From Citreicoccus inhibens (GTDB lineage: Bacteria > Myxococcota > Myxococcia > Myxococcales > Myxococcaceae), in NCBI RefSeq assembly GCF_019039035.1, contig NZ_JAHNZT010000054.1:1-33650 (forward strand): DNA of 33,650 nucleotides. The letters run 5' to 3'. A program made the translations under genes and the position numbers. Below the pieces are notes generated by a model that made no database searches, had not been told where the DNA came from, and saw only the letters and a list, made by a program, of their open reading frames with translations. This document shows, in pieces, positions 3,110-18,263 of this stretch. Each line of letters starts with the position of its first letter. Position 1 is the stretch's first letter.

Positions 3110-3142
3110 GACAAAGGCTTTGGGCGGCAAATCGGGGACATC
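3110..3142 (-). promoter_or_regulatory. Phage late promoter-like motif, copy A
   Basis: Read on the minus strand this is GATGTCCCCGATTT, 11 variable bases, then CCTTTGTC. Copies at 14081-14113 and 18231-18263 have the same 14 bases, the same spacing and CCTTTGT. It ends 17 bases before the ATG of the tail assembly gene at 3092, with the ribosome site GGAGG in between. The two conserved blocks are spaced like -35 and -10 elements. Promoter function is inferred. Confidence 0.65.
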
Positions 3143-3185
3143 AAAGGGCAATGGATGGCTAGGAGGGCAGGGTAGAGTTCTTCCC

Positions 3186-3836
3186 ATGCCCGCTGATGTC
3201 ATTCCGTTGGAGTTTGCTCGTTGGCTTCGCGACCACCCGGAGAAGGCCCGTCGCCTCGTCGTCTGTCTTGAGGCCTGGGGGATGATGACGACGCTGAGCG
3301 ACATGATGGATTGGGCTGTTGAGGAGGGGTACCGCTCCGACAGCCCGGTGACGCCCGAGTTGAAGAGGAAGACTCGGGAGGACGCCCTCGATGCGTTGCG
3401 TAGCGTGTTCGCTGACCTCGGCGCAGCACTCCCGAAGCGGCTCAGTCAAGAGAAGGAGGACAAGTTGCTTGAGATGGGCGTCAGCGCCGTCTACGGCAAC
3501 CTTCATCCGAATCCGGAAGCGCGGAAAGCAGAGTCCGAGCCTGCAGCCTCGCCTCGGCTATTCGCCGTCCAGTGGCCTGACCGCACGGTCAGCTTCGTCT
3601 ACGCACGCAGCAGAACGGAAGCAGTCATTACCCTCGACGAATGGATTGCCGACTGCGAACCACACGAGTTGGTCGAAGTCGACCCGCGAGTGGCTCTGAC
3701 ACTTCGTCCGAAGAAAGTCCGGGACGGCGACGTTCAGATTGACCTGGAGGATGTGGATTACCGCCTCCACGAGTTCATGTCCGAGGAGTTCCCAACCTTC
3801 TTCAAGCTGCCGAAGCCAAAGAAGAAGGGCGGTTGA
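3186..3836 (+). CDS. Hypothetical cargo protein inside the tail operon
   Basis: A 216-residue protein starting 'MPADVIPLEFARWLRDHPEK'. It is one of few plus-strand genes among the leftward virion genes, and its stop codon abuts the tail tube stop with no gap. It has an acidic/basic helical first half, a 'FAVQWPDRTVSFVYA' beta-like segment and a Lys-rich tail (KLPKPKKKGG). There is no signal peptide, membrane segment or motif I recognise. The ATG at 3186 is preceded by AGGAGG only at a distance of about 20 bases, so the ribosome site is weak. The opposite strand and the promoter-like motif on its left mark it as a cargo ('moron') gene. Confidence 0.75.
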   Translation: MPADVIPLEFARWLRDHPEKARRLVVCLEAWGMMTTLSDMMDWAVEEGYRSDSPVTPELKRKTREDALDALRSVFADLGAALPKRLSQEKEDKLLEMGVSAVYGNLHPNPEARKAESEPAASPRLFAVQWPDRTVSFVYARSRTEAVITLDEWIADCEPHELVEVDPRVALTLRPKKVRDGDVQIDLEDVDYRLHEFMSEEFPTFFKLPKPKKKGG

Positions 3837-4301
3837 TTACATGGGAGCCAGTGCGAAGAAGTCGTAGGTGAGGACAACGCTTTCGATGACGACTTCATCA
3901 CTCTCATTGTCCCATTCGCCTGCGACGAACTTCACCGGCCAAGCGCGAGAGAGGCTCCACCGGCGCAGCGTGGTGCCGTCCCTGTCCTGCTGGACGATGT
4001 CGAGGTTGCGCTTGTAGAGGATGTCCGGCAGGCCCAAGCCGCTGGCAGTATGGACGACGTCCTGGAACCAGTCGAAGAGCTCGTGGTCCTGCGTGGCGCC
4101 TCGCTCAAGGGTGACATCCGAGACGGTGAGGCGCCCCGGGGACTTGTTCGGAATCAGCGAGCCGCCCTCGAAGTACTGGACGTTGGCGACCTCGACGGAC
4201 AACTCGGAGCACTTCTGGAAACCAGCTGACGAGACTGAATCAATCTCGACCAGGAACTTGAACCGCTTATGGAAGCTGCGTGGCTGCCCGATGACGGCCA
4301 T
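3837..4301 (-). CDS. Phage tail tube protein, T4 gp19-like
   Basis: A 154-residue protein beginning '[20 protein letters not shown]' and containing '[22 protein letters not shown]', followed by '[21 protein letters not shown]'. This is the normal pattern and length of the gp19-type tube proteins of contractile phages and tail-like machines. It polymerises into the inner tail tube. It follows the sheath gene with an 11-base gap, and AAGGAG lies 7 bases before the ATG. Confidence 0.92.
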
Positions 4302-4312
4302 GGAGAGACTCC

Positions 4313-6529
4313 TTACGCGCCCGCCGAGGCCAGCTCGGCTTCGAGAGCACGGGTGTCCTGGGCGATGCGCAGGACGATGAACTCCGCGGGCTTGTTGGTA
4401 GCGAGCCCCACGCGCGCCACCAGTTGGCCTGCGAAGACGACGGACGGAGGGTTGAGGGACTCGGACGCGTCAACGAAGAAGGCCTTCTCAGGCTCCATGC
4501 TGCGGAAGGCTCCGTTGCGCATTTGCACGAGTAGGAAGGCGCTGACGAATCGCCGCACTTGGGCGCGCAGTCCCTCGGTGTTGTTGCGGTGCCTCGCGAA
4601 CTCGAGTCCGGCCTTGAGGCTTTTCTCAATGAAGGACACCCCGCGCCGCTCGCCGACGTAGGGGAAGTTGCCGCCGGCCTTCAGCGTGCGGCTGCCGTCG
4701 ATGAAGCGCGGCAAGCCGGGCCCGGTGGTGAGCGGGTTGACGCGGTGGGGATAGACGACGTCGCGCTTCTTCTCCTCCAGCACCTCGTTGGACTCGAAGC
4801 CGAGGACACCCAGCATGCGCCCCGCTTCGATGCCCGCGGGCGAGTCATACACACCGCCCGGGCGCGCGGAGTCGTTGCGCGCGAAGACGCCCGCGATGAT
4901 GCCGGAGGGCGGGACGACGACTTGCTCCACGTTGCCGAAGACGCCGCGCGCGGGGTTGAGCACCTTGACGCGGGGCCAGTACAGCGCGGCGTGCTCGGAC
5001 AGGCCTTCGAGGGCGGCCTCTTCGGAGACATAGGAGACGATGTCCGTGGCGCCGTAGCCCGCGGGCGAGTCCAAGACAGCGAAGGCCAGGCCGTCGCGCG
5101 CCACCTCGCAGTAGCGCACCATGGCGTTGTGGACGGCAGGCGTGGCCCGGCCGGGTACCAGGAGGAGCGACAGCTCCTGCACGGAGTCCAGCGCGTAGAG
5201 GCCCGTCTTCGTCGCCTCGGAGCCGATAAAGTCGGAGTCGCCAAGGCCAACAAGTCCGTCGGAGCCACCCGAGAGGGCTACCGTCTGCACGTCCGGGACG
5301 GCGCCCGGCTCCACCAGGAAAGCCTCGACGTAGCGAGAGCCGGTGCGCGCGTCGTTGAGGGCGCGCTCGACGTACCGCGCGTCGCCCTCGATGCTTGTGA
5401 GGTTGGGGAAGGACTCGCGGTAGGTGCCGTCCTCGAGGATGAGGACGTCGAAGGAGTCGGGCGAGCCGTTGGTGGCGGCGCGCACCTCCACCTCCAGCCG
5501 GTTGGCGTAGGCGCCCGCGTCCGTGGCAGCCAGGCGCAGGACGTCCATGTCTCCGGACGCCGCGCCCTGATGCAGCAGCGAGTCGAGCCCCAGCCCGAGG
5601 CTCGCGTCCCCTTGCACACGCAGGGAAGCGCCAGGCCCCGTGGCCAGAGTGCGCAGCTGCAGCGTCCCCAGGGAAGACGCCTCCACACGCACGCCCGCCA
5701 CCGAGGCCTCAACAAGGGAGCGCACCTCGTTGAGCTCAACGGCGCGCAGACTCTGGACGTTGCCCGTGCCCACCTGGGGCCCAAGCGGGAAGCCGAAGAC
5801 AGCGTTGGCCACCTCGTCGCCCACCTCCAGGCGACTGGCCGCCCCGAGGGTGTCGCTGGAGATTCTCAGCGCGCCGGCCTCGACGGTGGCGCGTCCCCCG
5901 ACGAGGCCTGCGTTGAGGACAGCAGCCACCTCCTCCGGCGTGGCCTGCGTCGCGTCGGCGAAGTCCCCCGCGCTGAATGAGACGAAGACGTCCCGCGCGC
6001 CGTCGACACGCACGCGGAGCGCCTGGCCGGCGGTAAGCGCATAGGGGCCCGGGCGGCTCGCTACGACGGAGGCCGCCGTCCCAGCGAAAGCCACGTCCAC
6101 CGCCGCGCCGCCGTTGACGGCCACCTCCAGGTGCTGACCGTTCGCCAGAGTGAAGGGAGGGCGGAGGGTGCCCCAGGCGACAGCGGGCGTGGGCCCGCCG
6201 CCCGTGGTGAGCGCTGCCGTCGCCCGCGTGGCCGTGTGCGACTCGGGGTTGGCGGCGTCCTCGTAATGGACGGTGCGCACCACCCACAGGTGGCTGCCGC
6301 CATTCTCGAAGAACCCCATGGCCGCGAGGGCCAAGTCCGAGTCCGGCGTGAAGCCGCCGAAGGTGGCCTGGTAGTCCTCCATGGTGGTGCACAGCACGGG
6401 CTTGCCGATGGGGCCACGCTCCGCCAGGCCTACGGCCCCCGCCACGGACGTAGGCGCGGAGGGGATGCCGCGGACGCGGGGCTCCTCCTCCACCACGACA
6501 ACCTTGGACGACAGCAACTCACGGCTCAC
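4313..6529 (-). CDS. Contractile tail sheath protein
   Basis: A 738-residue sheath protein. The N-terminus has '[20 protein letters not shown]' and '[20 protein letters not shown]', and the C-terminal third has '[20 protein letters not shown]' and '[15 protein letters not shown]', all hallmarks of phage sheaths. It contracts to drive the tube into the cell. A large Ala/Gly-rich middle region (about residues 110-420) is longer than in small sheaths and is probably a surface-exposed insert. The GTG at 6529 overlaps the upstream stop as GTGA, with GAGG 6 bases before it. The frame stays open upstream of this, but that extension is inside the previous genes. It shows that the phage has a contractile tail. 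Confidence 0.95.
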
Positions 6530-17932: not shown

Positions 17933-18135
17933 GAGCGGTCTTCCACGTAGGCCACGAGGCCCGTGGGGGTGTGAGAGACGGCACGCACGCGCTGGCCGCG
18001 GGCTGCCACCTCCGCGCGAACGGCATCCAGGAGTCCGTCCGAAGTCGAGGACTCGACGGTGAATCCAGTCCCTGGGCGCGCCGCGCCCGAGGCAGAGGAA
18101 GAGGAGAGGACGAAGACTTTGACGTCGCGCTGCAC
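17929..18135 (-). CDS. Small hypothetical protein, first gene of the portal operon
   Basis: A 68-residue protein starting with GTG at 18135, with a strong GGAGG 5 bases before it. It begins 'MQRDVKVFVLSSSSASG' and has 'LLDAVRAEVAARGQRVRAVS'. The end overlaps the portal start (GTGA). It is the first gene after promoter-like motif C. Family not recognised. Confidence 0.65.
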   Translation of the reverse strand: MQRDVKVFVLSSSSASGAARPGTGFTVESSTSDGLLDAVRAEVAARGQRVRAVSHTPTGLVAYVEDRS

Positions 18136-18183
18136 ACGGTCCTCCGGTGTCAGGTGGAGGCAATGCGCGCGGTGGGAGGGGTG

Positions 18184-18199
18184 CCTCTCACGTGAGAGG
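18184..18199. promoter_or_regulatory. Perfect 16-bp palindrome in the portal operon leader
   Basis: CCTCTCACGTGAGAGG is fully self-complementary. It lies between promoter-like motif C and the first gene at 18135, so it would be in the leader RNA. It could be an operator or a stable short hairpin. Confidence 0.4.
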
Positions 18200-18230
18200 G
18201 CGGTTGGGCGCGTGCCTCACCTTCAGTGGG

Positions 18231-18263
18231 AACAAAGGTCTTGGACCCTAAATCGGGGACATC
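18231..18263 (-). promoter_or_regulatory. Phage late promoter-like motif, copy C
   Basis: On the minus strand it has the same 14 bases GATGTCCCCGATTT, 11 variable bases and CCTTTGTT. It lies 95 bases upstream of the GTG at 18135 and just left of the plus-strand cargo island. The longer leader contains the palindrome at 18184-18199. Confidence 0.65.

Follow-up and report, generated by a model that had tools for sequence, protein, structure and literature searches.

Lytic phages carry sigma factors, among them gp55 of T4 and gp28 and gp33/34 of SPO1, that reprogramme the host RNA polymerase to dedicated late promoters, and in the defective prophage PBSX of Bacillus subtilis the protein Xpf drives the late tail operon. 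Xpf appears in passages of one paper, where it is listed, with regions 2 and 4, as a Group IV positive control factor (PMC10141391) and in an excerpt of another article as the 'sigma-like prophage PBSX factor' (PMC4243946), and sections of a third source state that phages of Bacillota encode sporulation-like members of the sigma-70 family, some of them in temperate phages (PMC9429907). Here we describe a recurrent candidate promoter element, and the divergent sigma-like proteins that may read it, in a prophage region of Citreicoccus inhibens (contig NZ_JAHNZT010000054.1, positions 1 to 33,650 of the forward strand; this whole stretch of 33,650 nucleotides (nt) is called the window) and in its relatives among the Myxococcaceae.

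An earlier note on this DNA had proposed a 33-bp bipartite motif, in three leftward copies, as a family of late promoters. The motif GATGTCCCCGATTT-N11-CCTTTGT is present exactly three times in the window, always on the minus strand (3111-3142, 14082-14113 and 18232-18263), with the 14 invariant bases, 11-base spacer and CCTTTGT where the note had placed them. The invariant pattern is 14+11+7 = 32 nt long; the base at position 33 varies among the three copies (C, C and T) and so falls outside it. Start codons called by our own gene caller follow at 3092, 14060 and 18135, which reproduces the noted distances of 17, 20 and 95 nt to the first genes. A chance origin of the three copies was excluded by shuffling, the full motif appearing in none of 300 dinucleotide shuffles of the window. 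The loose core GTCCCC-N15..22-CTTTGY was found four times against a mean of 0.06 and a maximum of 1 in 300 such shuffles, and the left block alone with up to three mismatches gave a weaker signal (five observed, mean 1.77). The degenerate fourth copy reported in the note is real: it lies at 26485-26517 on the minus strand and reads TGTCCCC...CCTTTGC, with the core intact (GTCCCC 26516-26511, CTTTGC 26490-26485), a spacer of 20 nt that is 3 nt longer, and an ATG at 26478, 7 nt past CTTTGC. Across the C. inhibens assembly of 9.05 Mb in 123 contigs, only the three window copies match the full pattern when N8-14 is allowed, and looser versions are found on seven other contigs, six of which bear genes of the same prophage family. 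The copy on the seventh, contig C64 (L176:8642(-)), resembles the one ahead of the portal operon and has none of the tested phage genes within 15 kb; it is possibly a remnant, or possibly serves another user of the promoter.

We scanned 17 prophage regions (696 kb), chosen for the motif, for the core GTCCCC/CTTTGY at spacings of 12-24. The 82 core sites fall at 17 nt (57 sites), 18 nt (2), 20 nt (19) and 21 nt (4), with none at 12-16, 19 or 22-24; because the full motif guided the choice of regions, 17 nt is favoured, whereas the absence at other spacings does not follow from that choice. The sites are oriented toward the next gene, and only two of the 82 lie within genes called by our own script, whereas such genes cover 75% of the bases. 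The essential blocks are likely GTCCCC and CTTTGY, with GATTT an extension conserved in one clade only. The note had likened the blocks to -35 and -10 elements, and the spacing of about 17 nt, the orientation toward genes and the near-exclusively intergenic placement are as that reading expects; in GTCCCC-N17-CTTTGY the first block would span -35 to -30 and the second -12 to -7. Candidate copy 1 (3110-3142, minus strand) would then have GTCCCC at 3139-3134, a 17-nt spacer, CTTTGT at 3116-3111 and a +1 near 3104, with GGAGG from 3103; candidate copy 2 (14081-14113, minus strand) would have GTCCCC at 14110-14105, CTTTGT at 14087-14082 and a +1 near 14075; and candidate copy 3 (18231-18263, minus strand) would have GTCCCC at 18260-18255, CTTTGT at 18237-18232 and a +1 near 18225. 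The sequence features support the motif as a putative promoter family.

Two standard promoter types were tried and set aside. The housekeeping promoter (TTGACA/TATAAT) is unmatched, as the note had held, with no promoter-like site in window positions 13800-18800, around copies 2 and 3, and none judged by eye at copy 1. Sigma-54 promoters have the consensus TGGC...TTGC at -24/-12; TGGC-N7..9-TTGC is absent from about 100 nt around all three copies, and the minimal form GG-N10-GC, likewise missing near copies 1 and 2, is found three times near copy 3.

Among 96 Myxococcaceae genomes, TGTCCCCGATTT-N{8,16}-CCTTTGT matches 50 sites in 16 genomes, and the motif read backwards matches none; all 50 sites have an 11-nt spacer, though 8-16 was permitted. 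The note had proposed to seek the motif across myxobacterial prophages, and the sites are concentrated in one prophage family and one other phage type. In 84,980 species genomes the full pattern gave 24 stretches, 22 of them in Myxococcaceae (Myxococcus, Corallococcus and one Myxococcaceae metagenome-assembled genome (MAG)). The other two, at spacing 14 in a spirochaete and at spacing 11 in a Rhodospirillales MAG, fit chance, about one such match being expected by our own estimate, and were omitted from column counts. Eleven motif stretches come from viral contigs. A relaxed scan with up to five mismatches gave 60 matches at spacing 11 and none for the reversed motif, although at least two of the 60 (L111 and L122) resemble chance; the 37, 37 and 18 matches at spacings 10, 12 and 13 are assumed to be the same sites out of register or classes with longer spacers. 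Matches at seven mismatches (33, against 16 in the control), including host-like ones on contigs C77, C79 and C108, were not credited.

Related prophage stretches were selected for the motif and their genes called with our script. From portal to tape measure the genes are collinear and 61-100% identical across 13 regions (window included), and the sites fall into classes by the gene that follows. Class C (copy 3) precedes the portal operon. Class A (copy 2) precedes a 61-aa open reading frame (ORF) followed by methyltransferase-protease, capsid, neck, sheath and tube genes. Class B (copy 1) precedes the baseplate hub and a tape-measure-like gene, class D a 636-aa gene and class G a 509-aa gene; the order portal, protease/capsid/tail, hub, 636-aa gene recurs in relatives. 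Classes A and B are each present in 13 of the 13 regions, C in 12 (in the exception, G071, that place reads CTTTGA) and F, the class of the fourth window copy, in 11. D was found in six of these regions and G in eight, with a ninth G site in G035 that the script did not assign to a class; several stretches, the window included, end short of the D and G positions. Two extra rows that the script assigned to B are a site lying upstream in G037b and, in G035, a hit within coding sequence. Further sites in the related prophages precede the recombination/small terminase (TerS) operon and a serine-recombinase operon, and one lies about 480 nt upstream of the gene for a sigma-like protein, sigma1, in G062 and G078. 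The term 'late promoter' used in the note is therefore too narrow.

What lies just downstream is as regular as the core. GGAG stands 7 nt past CTTTGY in 13 of 13 class A sites, 13 of 13 class B and 11 of 12 class C, and 8-9 nt past it in eight of eight class D sites. All eight class G sites have GTG or ATG 6 nt past CTTTGY, and class F combines a spacing of 20 with ATG or GTG 7 nt on in all 11 regions; start codons here are assigned from sequence, and the class F ORF is short and putative. With CTTTGY as the -10 element, +1 would fall on the start codon in class G and adjacent to it in class F, which suggests that both may give leaderless mRNAs. Copy 3 in turn has a long leader ahead of the portal operon. 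This leader (L094:9190-9268(-); window 18130-18232(-)) can form a long stable hairpin starting near the putative +1, with an 18-pair outer stem, 94.9% of cells paired in 12 sequences and a z of -5.5 in one; it is weakened in the window copy. Covariation does not support the hairpin, since values as high as those observed arise in 220 and 254 of 500 shuffles, and no match was found in Rfam.

We think that the element is probably the promoter of a phage regulon, read by a phage-encoded, divergent sigma-70-type factor, for which a protein here called sigma2 is the best candidate. This divergent sigma-like protein of 269 aa is encoded at 29157-29966 on the minus strand, directly upstream of a TerS-like gene. 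It was found in 23 of the 96 genomes; at 74% identity or more it is present in 15, all of them among the 16 motif-bearing genomes and none among the other 80, and eight genomes with diverged sigma2 (38-49% identity) are without the canonical motif. As a correlation within related phages this is suggestive only. In C. inhibens itself sigma2 is on contigs C73, C105 and C76, with a fragment on C108, and sigma1 was not found.

Sigma2 passes no curated sigma cut-off by itself, and its link to sigma factors runs via sigma1, a protein of 269-281 aa whose gene opens the replication operon of relatives. The two family profiles align over 242 columns (E 5.6e-8, probability 94.7). Sigma1 passes the cut-off of Pfam Sigma70_r4 (PF04545) with 24.6 against 24.1 bits, and matches TIGR02937 (sigma70-ECF, for extracytoplasmic function) over regions 2 and 4 with E 2.8e-6, at a score of 27 that is below the cut-off of 42.9. 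Its structural model has a predicted local distance difference test score (pLDDT) of 75 and a predicted template modelling score (pTM) of 0.55, and its top PDB matches are sigma factors and initiation complexes (best E 5e-3). The sigma2 model (pLDDT 76.5, pTM 0.56) gave a best Foldseek E of 0.016, and nearly all of the 50 rows listed have titles that name sigma factors or initiation complexes. As to the fold of region 2, the model superposes on sigma-S with Z 8.5 and a root-mean-square deviation (rmsd) of 3.1 over 107 residues and on sigma-E with Z 7.8 and rmsd 2.6 over 92 residues; both Z are under about 13, a range that models built of helices may share even when the proteins are unrelated.

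From the observed sites, with their geometry, placement, specificity and conservation, and from the sigma-like sequence or fold of both proteins, we infer where transcription would start, that RNA polymerase would bind there and which sigma would read the sites. GTCCCC would serve as the -35 and CTTTGY as the -10 element, usually 17 nt apart, with transcripts starting about 7 nt past CTTTGY. The host core RNA polymerase would probably be directed there by a phage-encoded, very divergent sigma-70-type factor. The source of sigma2 would be the recombination/TerS operon, just ahead of the virion operons, and its paralog sigma1, heading the replication operon in relatives, may start the cascade.

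Prophages outside the canonical group retain a related code. Eight collinear prophages or parts of prophages (G028, G072, G006, G010, G089, G090, G093 and G095) are without the canonical motif, and in the first three the positions upstream of orthologous genes read GTCCCC, 17-19 nt, CTTTGC and GGAGG. Ten stretches picked for a diverged sigma1 hold 27 core sites, 6, 11 and 10 of them at 17, 18 and 19 nt and none elsewhere between 12 and 24; of 59 shuffled-word controls on these stretches 37 gave no site and the highest gave nine. Two of the stretches, G028 and G072, are near-identical (seven sites each), and four of the 27 sites come from G062 and G078 of the canonical group, both G062 sites being in the main set as well.

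A similar core is used by a second phage type. In the stretch L112:9907-10930, G071 has an orphan canonical copy 233 nt upstream of the gene for sigma3, a clear sigma factor (Sigma70_r2 E 2.1e-10) that is followed by TerS-like, large terminase (TerL) and portal genes of another phage type. The three closest sigma3 orthologs (73-82%) have at that place GTCCCC-N17-CTTTG (twice) or GTCCCC-N20-CTTTG (once), and none of 16 more distant sigma3 loci that were fetched has a site. Region 2 of sigma2 aligns with sigma3 in register but weakly (E 0.037, probability 1.4).

Several observations weigh against the preferred explanation, a phage regulon served by sigma2. Sigma2 is below every curated sigma cut-off: Pfam Sigma70_r2 reaches a best E of 0.079, with a hit in seven of 22 members, and no NCBIfam sigma model matched in the two members scanned. 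For the AlphaFold models of sigma1 and sigma2 the pTM is about 0.55, and their Foldseek matches all fall short of E 0.001. Because the phages share ancestry, the parallel divergence of sigma2 and motif is a confounded signal. Sites are few in G090, G093 and G095, the prophages that have diverged furthest, and G010 and G089 are likewise sparser; several sites across these five read CTTTGG or CTTTGA, a weaker match. Spacers of 20-21 nt, as in classes F and G, are unusual for a sigma factor. The motif-bearing genome G057 has a single class B copy and neither sigma1 nor sigma2, and G055, which likewise has neither, has a related site upstream of sigma3, which may be read by sigma3 or by a host factor.

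That sigma1 and not sigma2 reads the virion promoters is unlikely. Sigma1 has the clearer sigma signature and was our first choice as reader; it was found in 25 of the 96 genomes, including 14 of the 16 that bear the motif. It was displaced by sigma2 on two grounds, that C. inhibens has the motif without sigma1, and that G062b, with near-canonical virion sites, shares 88% identity with G037b in sigma2 and only about 43% in sigma1. In G035 and G022 the sigma1 copies also contain internal stops.

Nor do we give much credence to a split of the element, with GTCCCC bound by a phage activator and CTTTGY alone read by the polymerase holoenzyme as an extended -10, or to the whole being an operator. 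Spacing that shifts by 3-4 nt, as it does in classes F and G and at one sigma3 site (L226), would suit such a protein, as would the conservation of the bases right before CTTTGY in 50 contexts, which come from few gene families. Against it, 57 of the 82 sites are spaced at exactly 17 nt, no obvious symmetry of a dimer site is present, and the fixed distance from CTTTGY to start codons or GGAG ties CTTTGY to initiation.

We consider it doubtful that the promoters are read by a host alternative sigma while the phage sigma-like proteins serve another role. The sites in G055 and G057 and the similar core of an unrelated phage type would fit such a factor. We scanned 12 whole genomes for TGTCCCC-N13..24-CTTTGY; the backward control gave 0-14 matches per genome, so isolated matches are background. 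No host regulon is visible: genomes with neither sigma1 nor sigma2 have few matches (none in G027, one in G066, two in G060 and four in G059, which has prophage remnants), and the matches lie mostly inside prophage stretches in G037 (14 of 18) and G062 (17 of 19). G072 is on the other side, with only three of eight matches in the prophage and five of eight outside, a number to be read against that backward control. The remaining alternative, an element acting at the RNA or translation level ahead of the ribosome-binding site, draws on classes A, B and D, where 17-21 nt separate the end of the element from the start codon and the distance to GGAG hardly varies, and is very improbable given that the called gene of class C is 96-98 nt downstream in most regions and that classes F and G run straight into the start codon.

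Promoters of a phage regulon, probably read by sigma2, would leave room for a wider proposal, which we advance tentatively as possible: a private network under a previously unrecognised sigma branch, with two paralogs acting in sequence, one GTCCCC/CTTTGY code over nearly the whole phage, spacers of 17-21 nt and often leaderless mRNAs, the code being shared with the unrelated sigma3/TerS/TerL phages of the same hosts. If so, such a motif common to unrelated phages may permit cross-activation, letting phages in one cell trigger or exploit each other.

The window genes, all on the minus strand unless stated, are arranged as follows. Past copy 3 come a leader ORF and portal protein (16133-18163, the portal start probably at 17932) and a minor head protein (14795-15874). 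Copy 2 is followed by the 61-aa ORF (13875-14060), a D12 adenine methyltransferase fused to an XkdF-type prohead protease in a single protein (12533-13882), the major capsid protein (11180-11971), the tail sheath (4313-6967) and, as last gene of the operon, the tail tube (3837-4301). The first gene past copy 1 is the baseplate hub (2322-3092, phrog_150), followed by a phage minor tail or tape-measure-like protein cut by the contig end (1-2130, PF10145). Between the tail tube and hub genes in G037 there is a group II intron-type reverse transcriptase (L093:13566-14975(-)). Downstream of the class F site is the large terminase region (22520-23951) in two overlapping frames, 22520-23494 being clear and 22830-23951 a weak N-terminal match (14.1 bits, cut-off 22). 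The class F site is directed toward it, antisense through a tyrosine recombinase gene (25116-25868, plus strand), and a near-perfect hairpin, GCCGAATGGCCGG...CCGGCCATTCGGC, lies at 26352-26389 between the site and that gene. Between portal and terminase, at 19239-21634, lies a 176-nt segment in three diverged copies, the outer two 68 and 84% identical to the middle one, the first of which sits in a plus-strand ORF matching phrog_26504. The gene next to sigma2 encodes a 314-aa helix-turn-helix protein (28205-29149; HTH_50 31.5 bits, cut-off 27), which by its position and sequence style is a putative small terminase. TGTCCAC/GTGGACA repeats of both orientations are clustered at 33050-33400 and may be iterons for replication or operators.

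No near DNA match to a named phage was found for window positions 1-25000, and the portal and tail sheath gave matches only below 60% identity. Among 50,697 phage records sigma1, sigma2 and sigma3 have no match and the motif one chance-level match only, and the portions of the open-licence PMC literature that came up in our searches hold no description of the motif, of sigma1 or sigma2, or of gene control in this prophage family. These results suggest that current family models miss very divergent phage sigmas. If the reading is right, a prophage family present in many Myxococcaceae gains a promoter code and a candidate for its regulator, and prophage induction in these social bacteria becomes directly testable by reporter.

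Dedicated promoters read by phage sigmas are already known, and the GTCCCC/CTTTGY regulon would be a variant of this kind. The sigmas of T4 and SPO1 belong to lytic phages, whereas here the phages are temperate and myxobacterial, the promoter has two blocks and the proteins are divergent and ECF-like. The sporulation-like sigmas of Bacillota phages resemble the sporulation sigmas of the host, whereas sigma1 and sigma2 match curated sigma models weakly. ECF (group IV) factors usually read promoters of the AAC/CGT type, unlike GTCCCC/CTTTGY. Sigma1 resembles this group in matching TIGR02937 regions 2 and 4, and both models resemble SigL, SigE and other sigmas; they differ in that the TIGR02937 match is below cut-off and the models have extra N-terminal helices. 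The nearest known system is Xpf of PBSX, likened here by its description in the passages cited above, as a prophage-encoded sigma with regions 2 and 4; the myxobacterial phages differ from it in the phylum of the host, in having two paralogs and many promoters per prophage, and in their GTCCCC/CTTTGY code.

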